This document shows positions 3,384 to 20,881 of a stretch of 30,894 nucleotides of DNA, piece by piece (positions within the stretch are counted from its first letter, which is position 1; each line of letters begins with the position of its first letter). Location: the IMG/VR virus record IMGVR_UViG_3300044712_000069, positions 1 through 30,894 of that record; one strand, 5' to 3'. Position numbers and translations under genes: made by a program. The notes under the pieces were generated by a model, which searched no databases, was not told where the DNA came from, and saw only the letters and a list, made by a program, of their open reading frames with translations. The DNA is from a virus.

Positions 3384-3649
3384 TGGCTATCACTTCGGGA
3401 ACTCAAATGATTGGGACGGAGCGCACCCAGATAGACGGAAACTCCGTGAATTGGGTAATGCTAACTATTCGCAACAACGAATCGACCAAGACTCTATACG
3501 TCGGCAATAGCACCGTTACCGTTGGAAACGGCTTGCCTATTGTGAAAGAATCGACTCAAAGTTTCGAGCTACCACCAGGGGAGAGCCTATCCATGATTAG
3601 CGATAGCGGAAGCCATAGTGTTTCTTGGCTAAGAATCGAGCGTGTCTAA
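3383..3649 (+). CDS. Small beta-rich head protein
   Basis: 88 aa, not assigned to a named family with certainty. The sequence is rich in alternating Val/Thr/Ser and has the segment L-Y-V-G-N-S-T-V-T-V-G-N-G-L-P. Such segments occur in small beta-sandwich virion proteins, so a capsid decoration or vertex protein is possible. There are no cysteines, signal peptide or membrane segments. It overlaps the portal stop and the protease start by one base each (TAATG), which ties it to the head operon. The structural role is inferred from position and composition. Confidence 0.75.
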   Translation: MAITSGTQMIGTERTQIDGNSVNWVMLTIRNNESTKTLYVGNSTVTVGNGLPIVKESTQSFELPPGESLSMISDSGSHSVSWLRIERV

Positions 3650-5346
3650 TGCCGTATTTTATTTGGAACGAATCCCCTAGTTGTTCGGGTTGGGCCGTAG
3701 TCAAAGAAGACGGCGAAGTAAAGTCCTGCCACAAAGACAAGCAATCCGCCATCGACGCTATGGTCGGAATTAGCGTGGCCGAAGGTATCGAGCCAGGCGG
3801 AACCTACGAACCACACTCCGAAGAAGTCCACGTCCAACAAGACGAATACAGAATCGAATCTGGTCCAGGTGCGGTTATTGCCGACATCGACGGAACGCTT
3901 CTAACTTTCCAGGGTCAGCGTATAGACCGAGTCCACGACTTCCTAAACACTTTCGAAGACACGGAAATTATTATCGTGACGGCAAGACTCGCTTCGGATC
4001 GGGCAGAAACCGAACGCGAACTAGATAATGCCGACATCGACTACGACTTGCTATTTATGAAGCCAAATGCCGATACCGATTCGACCGATTGGAAGAAGGC
4101 AACGGCAGAACGTCTTTTGGAAACCTATAACGTAATGGTTGCCGTAGACGACAATGCCGACATTCGTTCCGCGTATCGCGACTTGGGCATTACCGCAATT
4201 GCCCCCAGCGAGGTTCCAGCTTCGACCGACGACGAGTCGCAAGACGAAATGGACGAGCGCGCAGTAAACCTAACCCCACCGGCCTACATGAGAGCCGCAG
4301 CCCGACAAGGCTTGCGCTACTACGAAGAAGGTAAGGCTGGCGATGGAGTGGTGGAAAGAACTATCCGTGAAGCTCGCGCTATGGCGGAAGGAAATGTCAC
4401 GGCAGATAAGTGGGTTCGGATTCGGGCTTGGATTAGCCGTCACCTTGTTGATTTGGATTCGCCCGCCGCTAGACCTGATTCCCCTGATTATCCAAGTCCT
4501 GGCGTAGTCGCTCACTTGCTTTGGGGTTCGGGGCCTTCTAAGGCTTCGGCTCGCCGTGCGTTGGCCTATGCCGAGGGCGTGGTTAGTAGAATGGAACAAG
4601 AGAACGAAGGCCGAGCGAAAGGCGAAGCATTGTCAAAGATTGAAACTCGCGTATTCACAAACGAGTTTGAAGTCCGCGAAGACGGCGAAGGAATGACCCT
4701 AACCGGTTATGCCGCCCGATTCAACGAGCCAAGCGAGCCGCTTCCGTTTATCGAGCGTATCAAGCCAGGCGCATTCAAGCGATCTATCAACTCACGCAAC
4801 GACATAAAACTTCTATGGAACCACAATACCGACATGGTTCTAGGCTCTACCCGTGCGGGAACCCTAACTCTAAAGGAAGATGAAATCGGTCTACGCGTAG
4901 TCGCTACGTTGCCTGATAATTCATGGGGACGGGACGCAAAGGTTTCGATTCAGCGTGGTGACGTAACGGGTTTCAGCTTTGGATTCACCGTTCCAGCGGG
5001 CGGGGATTCATGGTCCAGCGATGGAACCGAGCGCACTCTAAAAAGCGTAAGACTTCTAGAGGTGTCTACCGGAGTCGCTTTCCCTGCCTACCCAAGCACC
5101 AACGGAACCGCTCAGGTTCGAGGACTTGACAAGGTCGCCCAGCGCAACAATATCGACGCGGACGCACTAGCAGACGCATTGCTAAAGATTGAAGACGGGC
5201 AGTCCATCTCTAAGGACGAAGCCGAAATGGTTTCCCGTGTAATCAACGACCTAGCACCTTCAGATTCAGTCGAGCAGAATCAGGGCGACTTGGGTATGCT
5301 TGCACTAAAGAAGAAGAAACTAGAACTACTACTCAAAGGAATCTAA
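3649..5346 (+). CDS. Prohead protease fused to a HAD-like phosphatase domain
   Basis: 565 aa, far longer than the roughly 200 aa of a typical HK97 prohead protease. Four parts are visible. (1) Residues 11-45: a small Cys-containing module (G-W-A-V-V-K ... C-H-K-D) seen in other phage head proteins. (2) Residues 74-187: HAD fold with D79-I-D81-G-T, T111 after a hydrophobic strand, K149/K150 and D167-D168. (3) Residues 206-318: helical W/R-rich module. (4) Residues 331-490: U35-type serine protease with H392 (W-N-H-N) and S443 (G-F-S-F-G-F); E471 is a candidate third residue. The C-terminus is Lys-rich and helical. ATG 3649 overlaps the previous stop (TAATG); the in-frame start 24 bases upstream is less likely. 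The protease should trim the capsid scaffold domain; the HAD substrate is unknown. Confidence 0.9.
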   Translation: MPYFIWNESPSCSGWAVVKEDGEVKSCHKDKQSAIDAMVGISVAEGIEPGGTYEPHSEEVHVQQDEYRIESGPGAVIADIDGTLLTFQGQRIDRVHDFLNTFEDTEIIIVTARLASDRAETERELDNADIDYDLLFMKPNADTDSTDWKKATAERLLETYNVMVAVDDNADIRSAYRDLGITAIAPSEVPASTDDESQDEMDERAVNLTPPAYMRAAARQGLRYYEEGKAGDGVVERTIREARAMAEGNVTADKWVRIRAWISRHLVDLDSPAARPDSPDYPSPGVVAHLLWGSGPSKASARRALAYAEGVVSRMEQENEGRAKGEALSKIETRVFTNEFEVREDGEGMTLTGYAARFNEPSEPLPFIERIKPGAFKRSINSRNDIKLLWNHNTDMVLGSTRAGTLTLKEDEIGLRVVATLPDNSWGRDAKVSIQRGDVTGFSFGFTVPAGGDSWSSDGTERTLKSVRLLEVSTGVAFPAYPSTNGTAQVRGLDKVAQRNNIDADALADALLKIEDGQSISKDEAEMVSRVINDLAPSDSVEQNQGDLGMLALKKKKLELLLKGI

Positions 5347-5691: not shown

Positions 5692-6855
5692 ATGTCAGAG
5701 TTCATCAAGGCTCAACACGAACTCCGCGCAAACTTGACCATGCAAATTCGCGAGGTCATCGACTCGGCAGAGGCCGAGGGTCGCGGACTAGATTCTGAGG
5801 AATTGCAGAAGATCGACCGTATCGAGGCCGACATTCGCAAGGCCGACGAGTCCATCGAGGTAGCAACCCGCGCAGAGGCTCGCAAGGTTGAGGCTTCCGT
5901 AGCCGCTAAGGGATTCATTCCTTCGGTTTCCGAGGAGCGTTCCGCTGGCGACGTATTCCGCGCACTAGCTAAGGGCGAGGCTCGTTCTTACGAGTTCGAG
6001 AAGCGCGCCGCTCTAGTATCTTCCGCTAACACCGTTCCTAAGTCGTTCTACGACCAGGTATTCGATGTTGCTCGTCTAGCTGGCCCAATGCTAGAGGTTT
6101 CGGACGTAATCCAGACCACCACCGGCGAGAACCTAACTATCCCAACCCTAACCGCTTACTCGACCGCTGCACTAACCGCAGAGGGTTCGGCTATCTCGGC
6201 TTCGGAGCCTACTTACAGTTCAATCACTTTGGGCGCATACAAGTATGGCTTCCTAATCCAGGCAGCCAACGAGCTAGTTACCGACGCAGGTTTCGACCTA
6301 GCTTCTCACCTAGCACGTCAGGCAGGTAACGCTATTGGTTACGCAGTAAACGCTGCTCTAACCACCGGAACCGGAACCGTTCAGCCTCTAGGTATCGCTA
6401 CCGCAGCTGGCACCGGCGTTACCGGCGGCACGGGGGTTTCAGGCGGCTTCACCGCGGACAATCTTATCGATTTGGCCTACTCGGTAAATGGAAGTGTCCG
6501 TCGCTTGCCATCGGCCGGATTTATGGCGAACGGTCAGACCATCGGTGCTATGCGTAAGCTAAAGGACACCGCTGGCAACTACCTATACCAGGTAGGCGTT
6601 GGCTACCCTGACACCTTCGCTGGCTTCCGCGTCGTGGAGAACCCACACGTTGCAGCCATCGCAACCGGTGCAAAGTCCGTTCTGTTCGGTGACCTAGAGT
6701 CCTACAAGGTTCGCCTTGCAGGTGGTATCCAGGTTCAGTCTTCACAGGACTACGCTTTCGCAAACGACCTGACCACCTGGCGTTTCTTGATCCGTCTAGA
6801 CGGTAACTTGACCCACCAGGCTCACGTTTCAGCCTTCAAGGGTGCAGCTAGCTAA
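5692..6855 (+). CDS. Major capsid protein, HK97 fold
   Basis: 387 aa. The first ~100 residues are charged and helical, matching the scaffolding delta domain removed by the prohead protease. The rest carries typical HK97-fold stretches such as F-L-I-Q-A-A-N-E-L-V-T-D (after about residue 190) and the glycine/threonine-rich T-G-T-G-T-V-Q-P-L-G-I-A. A strong AGGAG Shine-Dalgarno precedes the ATG, and the gene is flanked by terminators, so it forms its own high-level transcript. Leucine usage is extreme: by hand count 18 CTA, 7 TTG, 2 CTT, 2 CTG and 1 CTC of 30. Confidence 0.95.
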   Translation: MSEFIKAQHELRANLTMQIREVIDSAEAEGRGLDSEELQKIDRIEADIRKADESIEVATRAEARKVEASVAAKGFIPSVSEERSAGDVFRALAKGEARSYEFEKRAALVSSANTVPKSFYDQVFDVARLAGPMLEVSDVIQTTTGENLTIPTLTAYSTAALTAEGSAISASEPTYSSITLGAYKYGFLIQAANELVTDAGFDLASHLARQAGNAIGYAVNAALTTGTGTVQPLGIATAAGTGVTGGTGVSGGFTADNLIDLAYSVNGSVRRLPSAGFMANGQTIGAMRKLKDTAGNYLYQVGVGYPDTFAGFRVVENPHVAAIATGAKSVLFGDLESYKVRLAGGIQVQSSQDYAFANDLTTWRFLIRLDGNLTHQAHVSAFKGAAS

Positions 6856-6871
6856 TCCCTTGTAACAAACT

Positions 6872-6914
6872 GATAGGCCCCGTGTTGTAGGTTGCACGGG
6901 GCCTATCTTTATTT
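6872..6914 (+). terminator. Strong terminator after the capsid gene
   Basis: A perfect 13-bp stem, GATAGGCCCCGTG (6872-6884) and CACGGGGCCTATC (6895-6907), with a 10-base loop and then TTTATTT. It isolates the capsid message from the glycosyltransferase cassette. Confidence 0.95.
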
Positions 6915-6928
6915 GCTAGGCTAATCGC
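6892..6928 (+). promoter_or_regulatory. Candidate leaderless promoter of the glycan cassette
   Basis: TTGCAC (6892-6897) and TAGGCT (6917-6922) are 19 bases apart, and TAGGCT ends six bases before ATG 6929. There is no Shine-Dalgarno. This spacing would start the transcript at or next to the ATG, as in actinobacterial leaderless genes. The -35 box overlaps the preceding terminator stem. Inferred from pattern only. Confidence 0.45.
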
Positions 6929-8104
6929 ATGACAACCTACGGCGCAATTTCAATCGCAAGCAATTCTCCAGGCTCGCCTACGGGCTATGGAGTCCAGGGC
7001 CTACTACTAGCCGAACGCCTAAAGCGCGACGGCTACGACGTTGCCGCACTATCCAACTTCGGTCTAGAAGGCAACATCTCAACGCTCGAAACCAAATACG
7101 GCCCGATCGCACACTATCCCCGTGGCTACACGCTCTATTCGGGCGACGTTCTAGAAACCCACCACAAGCACTTCCTAGCCGGACGTGAAATCCCAAACGC
7201 AATTCTTACGCTTTACGACGCTTGGGTTTACCTAGACGTGCCACAACTAGAAGACCTAAAGTTCTGGTCTTGGACTCCGGTAGACCATCTATCCGTTCCG
7301 CCAAAGGTTGCGGCTTGGGCTAAGCGACCGAACGTAAAAACTATTTCAATGAGTCCGTTTGGACAAAGGCAATTTCAAGCTATCGGCGTAGACTCTACCT
7401 ACATTCCCCACGCCGTCGATACTTCGGTTTACAAGCCGACTGACAACATCGAAGGCTATTCGCTAAAGCAATACATGGGCGTAGGCGAGGACGACTTTAT
7501 CGTCGGTATGGTGGCCGCTAATAAGGCCAATGGTTCGATTCACCGCAAGGCCTATGCGGAAAACCTACTTAGTTTCGCGATGTTCCGACAGAAGCACCCG
7601 AACGCTTACCTATACATTCATGCCGAGCCGTCTAGGGTCTTCGGCGGTTTCCACCTAGCAACCCTTATGAAATCCGTAGGACTTCCAGAAGACGCGGTGT
7701 TGTTCCCTAATCCGCATAAACTTCGCTATGGGTATTCGTCCGAGGAAATGGCAGGGCTTTATTCCGCGATGGACGTTCTACTACACGCGTCCTACGGCGA
7801 AGGCTTCGGCGTTCCAGCCATCGAAGCCCAGGCTTGCGGAACCCGTGTCATTGGTTCTAATTGGGCGGCAACTCCGGAACTACTCGGTTCGGATTCTTGG
7901 TTAGTAGACGGCCAGCCGTTCTGGGACGAAGCGCAGTCATCGTTCTTCCAGATTCCGCTAGTGCCTTCCCTAGTAACCGCCCTTGAGCAGGCATACAACG
8001 CCCCTAGAGGGGTTTCTACGGCAAGCGTAGAATTCGCTAAGCAATTCGAAGTCGAAGCCGTCTATGAGCAGTATTGGAAGCCGTTTCTAGCCGAGAACCT
8101 ATGA
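6929..8104 (+). CDS. Glycosyltransferase, GT4-like (GT-B fold)
   Basis: 391 aa. It should transfer a sugar from a nucleotide-sugar donor to an unknown acceptor. The N-terminus has S-P-T-G-Y-G-V-Q-G followed by a helix, as in GT4 acceptor domains. The C-terminal donor domain has the E-X7-E motif (E291 and E299, in E-G-F-G-V-P-A-I-E) and then A-C-G-T-R-V-I-G-S. No signal peptide or membrane segment is seen, so it acts in the cytoplasm. It lies after the capsid terminator and is the first gene of a three-gene cassette, overlapping the next by four bases (ATGA). Acceptor candidates are capsid or tail proteins, or host-derived glycans. Confidence 0.88.
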   Translation: MTTYGAISIASNSPGSPTGYGVQGLLLAERLKRDGYDVAALSNFGLEGNISTLETKYGPIAHYPRGYTLYSGDVLETHHKHFLAGREIPNAILTLYDAWVYLDVPQLEDLKFWSWTPVDHLSVPPKVAAWAKRPNVKTISMSPFGQRQFQAIGVDSTYIPHAVDTSVYKPTDNIEGYSLKQYMGVGEDDFIVGMVAANKANGSIHRKAYAENLLSFAMFRQKHPNAYLYIHAEPSRVFGGFHLATLMKSVGLPEDAVLFPNPHKLRYGYSSEEMAGLYSAMDVLLHASYGEGFGVPAIEAQACGTRVIGSNWAATPELLGSDSWLVDGQPFWDEAQSSFFQIPLVPSLVTALEQAYNAPRGVSTASVEFAKQFEVEAVYEQYWKPFLAENL

Positions 8105-8748
8105 TCCCCGTTCTAGGTTTTGCGACGCTATCCAGGTTCGACCTGGCGCAACGTCTATTGGATTCCATCGACTACCCCGTCGAACACCTGGTAATCGTAG
8201 ACAACTCTGGCAAAAAGGTATTCGAGCCGAAGGTAAATGACAACGTAAAGAATCTCTGGGTTCTACGGGTGCCAAGCGGACTCGGTGCTAACGGGGCCTG
8301 GAACCTAATCATCAAGTCCACGCCTCACGCGCCCTATTGGGTTATCCCAAACGACGACGCACACTTCGAACCAGGCGCACTCGAAACCATCGCTAGAGAA
8401 GTCCAGACGGACAAGTTCAACTTCTTGAACATTTCCCCTAAGTGGTCGTGCGTAATCCCGACAGAAGGCAGCGTAGGCAAGGCGGGACTATGGGACGAAG
8501 TATTCCACCCGATCTACTTCGACGACGACGAATACGAATGGCGTATGCGCGAACTAGGCGTAGAGTTCCACACTATCAACGCACGCGTTTACCATGACAA
8601 TAGCTCAACGCTTCACAGCGGATTCCAAGAGCGTAACGCCATGACCTATACCCGTAACAACTCCATGTTTACTAACAAGCGGGCGGCTAAGAACATCGGC
8701 ATTATTGGTTGGTCGCTAAAAGTGCGAAGGGAAAACAGATGGGACTAA
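8101..8748 (+). CDS. Glycosyltransferase, GT2-like (GT-A fold)
   Basis: 215 aa. The N-terminal strand P-V-L-G-F-A-T-L-S-R-F-D resembles the nucleotide-binding start of GT2 enzymes. The metal-binding segment is probably N84-D85-D86. A later F-D-D-D-E-Y-E-W-R-M-R-E-L-G block (about residue 139 on) resembles the catalytic acidic region. It is shorter than many GT2 enzymes but looks intact. ATG 8101 overlaps the GT4 stop (ATGA), and the 3' end overlaps the next gene by ten bases, so the three are co-translated. The product linkage and acceptor cannot be read from the sequence. Confidence 0.85.
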   Translation: MIPVLGFATLSRFDLAQRLLDSIDYPVEHLVIVDNSGKKVFEPKVNDNVKNLWVLRVPSGLGANGAWNLIIKSTPHAPYWVIPNDDAHFEPGALETIAREVQTDKFNFLNISPKWSCVIPTEGSVGKAGLWDEVFHPIYFDDDEYEWRMRELGVEFHTINARVYHDNSSTLHSGFQERNAMTYTRNNSMFTNKRAAKNIGIIGWSLKVRRENRWD

Positions 8749-9161
8749 GGGTTTACACCGGTGGAACCTTCGACTTATTCCACGCGGGCCACGTTGAGTT
8801 TCTAAAGACTTGCGCTCAACTAGGCGACGATGTCTATGTGGCTCTAAATACCGACGAATTTATAGCCGAATACAAAGGCAAACCGCCCGTCATAAGCTAC
8901 GAAGATCGCAAGAAGGTTCTTCTGGCGTGTAAGTATGTGGACTTCGTAATCCCTAACTCAGACGGCAAAGACTCGTGCCCTACTATCGAATCCGTGGCCC
9001 CGCACATTATCGCTATCGGTTCGGATTGGGCGCGTAGGGATTACTACAAGCAAATGAATTTCACGCAGGATTGGTTGGACGAAAGAGGAATAAGCCTTAT
9101 CTATATTCCCTATACCCAGGGCATTAGTTCTACCGAAATAAAGCAAAGGCTAGGGAAGTAG
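8739..9161 (+). CDS. Cytidylyltransferase-like nucleotidyltransferase
   Basis: 140 aa with the hallmarks of the TagD/RfaE/CTP:phosphotransferase superfamily: Y-T-G-G-T-F-D-L-F-H-A-G-H, with H15-A-G-H18 as the nucleotide-binding HxGH, and G-I-S-S-T-E-I-K (128-135), matching the family ISTT motif. Length is right for a single-domain enzyme such as glycerol-3-phosphate cytidylyltransferase. It should make a CDP-activated (or similar) alcohol or sugar, perhaps for the two glycosyltransferases just upstream. ATG 8739 with GAAGGGAAAA upstream is chosen; an earlier in-frame start lies deeper in the GT2 gene. Confidence 0.9.
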   Translation: MGLRVYTGGTFDLFHAGHVEFLKTCAQLGDDVYVALNTDEFIAEYKGKPPVISYEDRKKVLLACKYVDFVIPNSDGKDSCPTIESVAPHIIAIGSDWARRDYYKQMNFTQDWLDERGISLIYIPYTQGISSTEIKQRLGK

Positions 9162-9173
9162 AATAGACGTATG
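9155..9173 (+). promoter_or_regulatory. Candidate leaderless start motif, copy 1
   Basis: GAAGTAGAATAGAC then G-T-ATG. TAGAAT (9159-9164) resembles a -10 box and ends six bases before ATG 9171; no Shine-Dalgarno is present. The same 14-mer, in the same position relative to the ATG but a different reading frame, occurs before the peptidase gene at 19577. Confidence 0.5.
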
Positions 9174-9770
9174 ATTACCAACGGATACTGCACACTAGCG
9201 CAAGTAAAAGCGGGACTCCGCATAAATGACACCGTGGACGATTCCCTTTTGGAGATGGCGGTAGAGTCCGCTTCCCGCGCGATGGATTCCTACTGCAATC
9301 GCGTCTTCTACTCCACCGGCACGGCAGTAGTTCGCTATTACTCACCACGCGATTCTTACCTATGCGAAATCGACGACCTAGTATCCCTGACTTCGCTATA
9401 CACAAACAATAACCAGACTCAGACCAGCTATAACGTCGCTTGGACTTCCGAGGACTATCAGCTTGAACCGCTAAATGGTTTGGCAGATTCGCAGCCGGTT
9501 CCTTATACCCAGATTCGTGCGATCGGTAACCTAACATTCCCGAACCTAAATGGCGAAGCAAGCGTAAAGGTTACGGGCGTATTCGGTTACAACGCAGTCC
9601 CAATCGCCGTTACCCAAGCAACCGTTATCCAGGCTTCCCGTATTTACAAGCGACTAGACAGCCCGCTAGGAATTATCTCCGGTGAGCTTGGTTCTATGCG
9701 CGTAGGCACTCGCCTAGACCCAGATGTAGCTCAGCTCGTAGACGGCTTCCGTAAAGTGAGAATGGCCTAA
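9171..9770 (+). CDS. Head-tail connector protein (gp6-like)
   Basis: 199 aa. The N-terminal half (C-T-L-A-Q-V-K-A-G-L-R-I ... L-L-E-M-A-V-E-S-A-S-R-A-M-D-S-Y-C) has the helical pattern of HK97 gp6-like adaptors that sit under the portal. It lies after the glycan cassette, the usual position after the capsid gene in related phages, which suggests the cassette was inserted between capsid and connector. It probably starts without a Shine-Dalgarno (see the motif at 9155). It overlaps the next gene by one base (TAATG). Confidence 0.85.
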   Translation: MITNGYCTLAQVKAGLRINDTVDDSLLEMAVESASRAMDSYCNRVFYSTGTAVVRYYSPRDSYLCEIDDLVSLTSLYTNNNQTQTSYNVAWTSEDYQLEPLNGLADSQPVPYTQIRAIGNLTFPNLNGEASVKVTGVFGYNAVPIAVTQATVIQASRIYKRLDSPLGIISGELGSMRVGTRLDPDVAQLVDGFRKVRMA

Positions 9771-10597: not shown

Positions 10598-10619
10598 CAA
10601 CTAAAAAGGAAACCTACAA

Positions 10620-10871
10620 ATGAGAATAAATCTCGAAATCGAACAAGTAGACGGAACCAAGCAAGAGGTTACCGCTTCAGCCATTGACCTAGTCAAGTTC
10701 GAGGAAAAATACGACATCAGCGTATCTAAGCTCGATAAGGAAATGAAGCTTACCCACTTGCTATTCCTAGCTCACACGTCGCTAAAGCGACAGAACAAGA
10801 CCGCTCTAGACTTCGACGCATGGCTAGAAACGGTTGAGAGCGTAGGAGCTTCGGCTAAAGACCCAAAATAG
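10620..10871 (+). CDS. Tail assembly chaperone, short form
   Basis: 83 aa, acting like the lambda G product: it coats the tape measure during tail assembly and is not part of the virion. The sequence is charged and helical. It ends at tandem TAG TAG directly behind the slippery heptamer C-CCA-AAA (10862-10868). Position between tail tube and tape measure is the standard one. Ribosomes that do not shift make this form. Confidence 0.85.
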   Translation: MRINLEIEQVDGTKQEVTASAIDLVKFEEKYDISVSKLDKEMKLTHLLFLAHTSLKRQNKTALDFDAWLETVESVGASAKDPK

Positions 10872-18119: not shown

Positions 18120-18155
18120 TAACAAACCTACGCCCTATCTTTCGGAGCGTATCTA

Positions 18156-20551: not shown

Positions 20552-20560
20552 TTATCTTAT
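20527..20560 (+). terminator. Terminator of the late operon, overlapping a WhiB stop
   Basis: 13-bp stem, GATAGCCCCGTCA (20527-20539) with TGGCGGGGTTATC (20544-20556), two G-T pairs, closed by a GAAA tetraloop. TTAT follows on the plus strand. It lies between converging genes and overlaps the stop codon of the minus-strand WhiB gene. Confidence 0.7.
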
Positions 20561-20881
20561 TGCACCTAGCTTGAACTTCTCGACTCTAGCGGCTGACCGC
20601 TCTAAAGCCTTCTCTAGTGTTGTCTTACCCCTGCGAATGTCGATTCTCTGGTGTGGGGTTAGCCCGCCCCAAATGCCATACCCTTCGTCTGCCGCAAGCG
20701 CATAAATAGCGCACTCCCGTTGAACGGGGCAGGTCCCGCACAGCTTCTTCGCCATGCGTAATTCATAGGACTCACCGCCAGATTCGGGGAACCATAATTC
20801 TCCGTCTACTTCTTGGCAGACCGGCGTTCCCTTCTGCCTAATCGCGTCGGCTAATAACGTAAATGCTTGTTCCGCTTTCAT
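20552..20881 (-). CDS. WhiB-family iron-sulfur regulator 1
   Basis: 109 aa. Cysteines C22, C48, C51 and C57 match the WhiB arrangement C-Xn-C-X2-C-X5-C that binds a [4Fe-4S] cluster. G69-I-W-G-G follows and then basic residues (about 79-108), the putative DNA-contact tail. WhiB proteins bind the host sigma factor and redirect or block transcription; some phage versions are known to act on host genes. It is transcribed against the late operon from its own promoter (20889-20917), seven bases between the -10 box and ATG, so the message may be leaderless. Confidence 0.92.
   Translation of the reverse strand: MKAEQAFTLLADAIRQKGTPVCQEVDGELWFPESGGESYELRMAKKLCGTCPVQRECAIYALAADEGYGIWGGLTPHQRIDIRRGKTTLEKALERSAARVEKFKLGAIR

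Follow-up and report, generated by a model that had tools for sequence, protein, structure and literature searches.

A cassette of three genes between the capsid and connector genes of a small phage likely serves virion glycosylation, in a slot that is fixed across a marine and freshwater actinophage family and with a probable loop-based RNA control. The argument starts from observed genes, synteny, module exchange, promoter enrichment, capsid co-variation and loop/target complementarity, from which we infer the glycan, its acceptor residue, its donor, that an RNA control exists and in which direction it works. During late infection, the glycosyltransferase GT4 would add a first sugar to the major capsid protein (MCP), most likely at Ser/Thr 241 in a predicted loop. 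A second transferase, GT2, would then extend it with a second, lineage-specific sugar, building a short O-glycan before or during assembly. The donor for GT2 would be made by the nucleotidyltransferase encoded third in the cassette; in sister phages, an NAD-dependent epimerase would take this role. Since the two distal genes are exchanged as one unit, the capsid could acquire a different outer sugar with no change in how it is attached. At the end of the capsid mRNA, a hairpin would present a loop of 8-10 nt for pairing with two gene starts, that of GT4 and that of the gene which follows the tail-tube gene. This pairing would most likely lower translation of these two genes relative to capsid and tail tube, or possibly activate it.

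The cassette and its slot

The window, which is the entire IMG/VR viral contig IMGVR_UViG_3300044712_000069 (30,894 nt; features are on the + strand unless marked), has the gene order of a small siphophage: terminases, portal, prohead protease, HK97-type capsid, the slot, connector, tail terminator, tail tube, tape measure and replication genes. Its closest isolate is Pontimonas phage phiPsal1 (MG835450), a ~31-kb phage, since lost, that was present as a minor sequence within the Pontimonas salivibrio assembly (PMC6106888), and the two have a common genome plan. Clues to the host are this nearest isolate, which infects Pontimonas, and a WhiB-like regulator gene (20552-20881, - strand), also carried by phiPsal1. 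A pattern-based scan of bacterial genomes found no GT4 relative, and thus gives no host or prophage link. Codon and GC content give no foreign signature for the cassette.

The slot lies between the MCP gene (HK97 fold, 5692-6855; PF05065, E 2e-53) and the gene of a gp6-like head-tail connector (9171-9770; phrog_442, PF05135). The first gene of the cassette (6929-8104) encodes a GT4 glycosyltransferase of the GT-B type with 391 aa, the proposed initiating enzyme (PF13692/PF00534; phrog_2170, E 8e-38). Its Glycos_transf_1 and Glyco_trans_1_4 domains score above their cut-offs, at 39.6 (cut-off 27) and 36.5 (26.4) bits. The second gene (8101-8748, 215 aa), the proposed distal transferase, is GT2-like (GT-A); its product has no Pfam match and does match phrog_29879, annotated as 'galactosyl transferase' (E 2e-31). 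The AlphaFold model of this protein (pLDDT 86.8) has a GT-A fold, and Foldseek matches it to solved GT2 enzymes with E about 1e-8. The third gene (8739-9161, 140 aa, PF01467) encodes a cytidylyltransferase-like nucleotidyltransferase, proposed to supply the GT2 donor. The GT2 start overlaps the GT4 stop (ATGA), the third gene overlaps GT2 by 10 nt, and all three reading frames are intact, which bears out the preliminary description of a three-gene set placed between a perfect terminator and the connector gene.

The third protein is closest to glycerol-3-phosphate and ethanolamine-phosphate cytidylyltransferases and to the C-domain of HldE. In common with TagD and the HldE C-domain, it has the PF01467 fold, the HxGH motif and the KYVDFVI and GISSTEI motifs. 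It scores below the equivalog cut-offs of TagD (TIGR01518, 91.7 vs 165.4 bits) and of the HldE C-domain, a heptose-1-P adenylyltransferase (TIGR02199, 79.7 vs 181.5 bits). Because it falls short of every equivalog cut-off, the activated sugar donor that had been ascribed to it is something we infer.

A DNA-level search of phage records returned just short matches to Streptomyces phage nucleotidyltransferases, and protein searches were therefore used. When the third gene alone was compared with 2.9 million viral contigs, about 70 of the best 80 matches lay in the order MCP-GT4-GT2-nucleotidyltransferase-connector. The same three-gene set at the same site, which had been suggested as a search, is thus common in uncultured relatives of phiPsal1. 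Close relatives of the third gene also occur in phages with neither this MCP type nor the cassette (L150, L162, L174, L179, L188, L191 and L192).

Among relatives of the capsid, the cassette sits at the same place behind the capsid gene. The space up to the connector is either empty (about 90-190 bp) or filled with GT4 and variable genes. Behind GT4 are found GT2 with the nucleotidyltransferase, another GT2 with an NAD-dependent epimerase, an extra GT1-like gene, a methyltransferase or an RmlD-like gene; in phiPsal1, the slot holds GT4, a methyltransferase and GT2. The limits of the exchange are seen by comparing the window with a relative, G003. The DNA is 89% identical through the last base of GT4 (8104), and similarity resumes at 9158. 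Nothing aligns in between, because the GT2 and nucleotidyltransferase of the window replace the GT2b and epimerase of G003. Positions 8105-9157 thus make up an exchangeable distal module with no detectable nucleotide similarity, set between flanks that are ~89% identical. The window-type GT2 accompanies the nucleotidyltransferase in 70 phages and the epimerase in none, while other GT2s accompany the epimerase in 9 phages and the nucleotidyltransferase in 4 (Fisher p 2e-9, uncorrected for relatedness). This pairing indicates that the distal transferase moves as a unit with its supply gene. Similarly composed cassettes are also seen in Mae-JY09 and S-CBS4, whose capsids are of other types.

The cassette is bracketed by the hairpin on its 5' side and by the promoter-like element of the connector on its 3' side. 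The hairpin behind the capsid gene (6872-6907) resembles an intrinsic terminator: a perfect stem of 14 pairs (-28.1 kcal/mol) is followed by TTTATTT. The preliminary description was right in calling it perfect, and the stem is one pair longer than the 13 counted there. The hairpin follows the MCP gene in relatives with and without the cassette, and the sequence of its stem varies. A two-hexamer sigma-70 scan found no promoter on the + strand, and the actinobacterial extended -10 was used in its place. Such an element, TGCTAGGCT, lies at 6914-6922, six bases before the GT4 ATG. Between hairpin and GT4, 45 of 62 non-redundant relatives have the extended -10 TGNTANNNT; shuffled sequences give 4.2. 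This enrichment supports the earlier proposal that the cassette has a promoter of its own, and the short distance to the ATG suggests that the GT4 transcript is probably leaderless. On the other side, a -10-like TAGAAT (9159-9164) is placed six bases from the ATG of the connector gene, and empty-slot relatives retain both this element and the hairpin, so that the cassette is flanked by a terminator on one side and the following promoter on the other.

The hairpin loop and its complementary gene starts

The stem of the hairpin varies freely, but the loop hardly changes within a lineage, and its sequence is the start of GT4 in reverse complement. In the window, the loop seed GTAGGTTG (6887-6894) is complementary to CAACCTAC, bases +5 to +12 of the GT4 reading frame (6933-6940), and to AACCTACAA (10611-10619), directly before the ATG of the gene that follows the tail-tube gene. 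The latter encodes 83 aa (10620-10871; phrog_6889, unknown function) and is the second conserved loop target. The predicted duplex energies with the two targets are -12.4 and -11.8 kcal/mol. Both targeted genes stand directly behind the gene of a most abundant virion protein.

Loop and target differ in step between lineages. At the GT4 start, the loop TTGTAGGTTG goes with CAACCTAC, TTTGGTTGAT with ATCAACCAAA, TCTAGGTTG with CAACCTAGA, and TGCGTAGGC with GCCTACGC. At the start of the post-tail-tube gene, GTAGATTG goes with AATCTAC, TGCGTAGA with TCTACGCA, and TATAGGTTG with CAACCTAT. A match of at least 7 nt to the phage's own loop is present at 48 of 67 GT4 starts (1.8 expected) and at 51 of 57 post-tail-tube starts (2.2 expected). 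When loops were swapped among phages, the observed sum was reached in 0 of 2000 trials for each target, in permutations that ignore relatedness. In an unbiased scan of 1168 gene starts from 38 genomes, matches of at least 8 nt fell mostly on these two genes, at a rate of 4.6% vs 0.9% with other-type loops. On the capsid tree, the loop type changes about 18 times, unclassified loops included. Tests of single columns agree at columns 4 and 8 and disagree at column 9, where many cases are G-U pairs, a point noted after the test. The independent single-column changes that agree are 1/1 and 3/3 for the second target, and about 2/2 for GT4. phiPsal1 and L080 have no clear pairing between loop and gene start.

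Two simpler origins of the complementarity were considered. A purely coding origin of the second target (Asn-Leu-Gln) is rejected: members of the window clade carry the site outside the gene, in the 5' leader, and spell the Asn-Leu codons otherwise, so that protein coding does not explain the match. A purely cis role with GT4 is rejected as sufficient, because empty-slot phages keep both the loop and the second target.

Another explanation is that the complementarity is a by-product, either of a site for a DNA- or RNA-binding protein or of Asn-Leu coding with a CTA bias. In 13 genes, 244 of 450 leucines are encoded by CTA, an unusual preference for a phage with 52% GC; since this is more than half, it raises the chance of finding AACCTAC, which occurs 11 times in the window vs 4.2 in shuffles. 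We nevertheless regard such a by-product as unlikely. The motif sits at the apex of the hairpin as the reverse complement, loop and targets differ together across loop types, and some clades have the sites in leaders, others in differing reading frames.

Pairing of the RNA is the reading that we prefer. A conserved seed that is complementary to several phage transcripts and co-varies with them, as found here, characterizes a base-pairing regulatory RNA. The candidate hairpin persists without the cassette, and its sequence has changed together with its targets in several lineages. There is about an even chance that the hairpin which ends the capsid mRNA works as a riboregulator with several targets, pairing in trans or within the read-through transcript and throttling the genes after the capsid and tail-tube genes. 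Possible further targets in the window are a loop-complementary AACCTAC (62-68) after a -10-like element before the small terminase gene, and another (18125-18131) just downstream of TAAACT. Loop-complementary tags of this kind were seen after -10-like elements of other transcripts at 62 and 18125 and, in L114, at 7253 and 8396, and in a type-B phage these tags have the type-B sequence.

The element matches no Rfam family at threshold, sub-threshold matches being taken as chance, and no description of it was found in Rfam or in the largely open-access literature searched. P4 CI RNA is a phage RNA that pairs through a short seed with phage transcripts. The P1/P7 c4 RNA also pairs with phage transcripts through a short seed (PMC12197685). 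The window element would resemble both in pairing near gene starts or leaders. It differs in that c4 and P4 CI govern lysogeny and immunity, whereas the window seed is found in a capsid-mRNA 3' hairpin and its targets are late genes.

Capsid residue 241 and the proposed glycan target

The candidate acceptor emerged from a column-by-column comparison of MCPs from phages with and without GT4, and loci fetched afterwards served as a test. Residue 241, a Thr in the window (codon 6412-6414), is Ser or Thr in 140 of 146 distinct capsids from GT4-bearing phages and in 0 of 40 from GT4-less ones (MCC 0.91). In the later, out-of-sample loci, the counts are 31/35 and 0/22. This is the best Ser/Thr column of the capsid; the next, Thr 325, tracks GT4 less closely (MCC 0.73). 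Six capsids from GT4-bearing phages have Ala at 241. On the tree, the GT4 state changes only four times, with Ser/Thr 241 concordant in about 3.9 of the 4, and with so few gains and losses a sign test is unable to reach significance (p 0.125). In the capsid AlphaFold model, which is poor (pLDDT 56), residue 241 falls in a predicted loop and placement at the surface is unsupported. Elsewhere in the capsid, His 378 is present in 89 of 89 cassette-bearing capsids, and Glu takes its place in 8 of the 9 capsids that the first set has from empty-slot phages.

Phages with GT2 and without GT4 do not have Ser or Thr at 241, which is what an initiating role of GT4 would predict. In four such phages (L063, L064, L336 and L339), GT2 occupies the slot after the capsid gene, and the enzyme may there be a remnant or act on something else.

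The acceptor might instead be another virion protein (tail tube, connector or minor tail protein), with the capsid co-variation hitch-hiking on linked ancestry. In mycobacteriophages, tail-tube subunits are glycosylated alongside capsids, one tail-tube column of the present set reaches an MCC of 0.61, and the independent events are few. This account seems improbable, however, as the best columns in the connector (0.40), tail terminator (0.49), tail tube (0.61) and protease (0.57) stay below the 0.91 of the capsid, and the capsid column held in the loci fetched later.

Somewhat less probable still is that the cassette modifies the host surface, by seroconversion or superinfection exclusion, and leaves the virion unchanged. 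Phage glycosyltransferases that alter the host surface are established in the gtr systems. Moreover, P. salivibrio, the host of the nearest isolate, has a cell wall rich in glycosyltransferases (PMC6106888). Against this, the gtr-type arrangement of a membrane-anchored flippase and transferase is missing: none of the three cassette products has a membrane segment (the highest 19-residue hydropathy is 0.92), and a flippase or membrane partner is absent. The cassette also sits in the late structural region, MCP residue 241 tracks GT4, which is unexpected for a target on the host, and phiPsal1 is described as lytic. Glycosylation of phage DNA is very improbable: such phage enzymes are known (Pyle et al. 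2024, as cited in PMC12619734), but base-hypermodification enzymes are absent among the replication proteins scanned (RecE/YqaJ, RusA, HNH and replication initiator) and the part of the small early ORFs that the scan covered, GT4 is preceded by a promoter of its own within the late region, and its presence tracks a capsid residue.

The evidence favours O-glycosylation of the capsid, started by GT4, and the cassette would probably act on the virion rather than on the host surface. Where the preliminary description left the choice between capsid and tail, soluble enzymes, a fixed site and co-variation at residue 241 now point to the MCP, and the preference for the virion over the host surface is probable.

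Related systems and neighbouring observations

Virions of mycobacteriophages such as Che8 and Rita are glycosylated by phage enzymes, according to Freeman et al. 2023 (via PMC11256854, PMC11600133, PMC12619734). The present case is a variant of this known process in another setting. Alike are the phage-encoded glycosyltransferases, which in the mycobacteriophages, often together with methyltransferases, decorate the capsid and tail tube of siphophages of Actinobacteria. There, the glycans are reported at C-termini, and the genes of Maravista lie near the 3' end of the genome. In the window, by contrast, the set lies between the capsid and connector genes and includes a putative donor-supply gene, the distal pair is exchanged, and the candidate site, Ser/Thr 241, is internal.

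In phiPsal1, GT4 and GT2 are 54% and 36% identical to those of the window and occupy the same slot; a methyltransferase gene lies between them on the other strand, and the nucleotidyltransferase is absent. Microcystis phage Mae-JY09, with another capsid and host, carries GT4 (35% identical to that of the window), a GT2-like gene and an epimerase behind its capsid gene. Synechococcus phage S-CBS4, also with another capsid and host, has GT4, GT2 (27% identical) and a methyltransferase in the head-gene region. Inspection of the sequence before GT4 revealed no RNA element in either of these two phages. As far as the literature searched goes, neither the layout of the cassette nor the candidate acceptor site nor the RNA element has been described before.

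If the proposed model is true, virion glycosylation would extend from mycobacteriophages to abundant aquatic actinophages, where there is no antibody selection. Variation of the capsid glycan would then need another cause, such as particle stability, protist grazing or phage-binding proteins. The swapping of an outer-sugar module beside a fixed attachment enzyme would amount to a natural experiment on capsid 'serotype' for which a specific candidate residue can be named. The loop and its targets would offer a simple rule by which a small phage balances capsid and tail tube against their neighbours.

Upstream of the capsid gene, the prohead protease (3625-5346) carries an N-terminal HAD/PNKP-phosphatase-like domain (residues about 81-191). 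A homologue of this domain was present in only eight other fetched loci, which belong to a few contigs, and it thus seems to have been gained and lost inside the protease gene.
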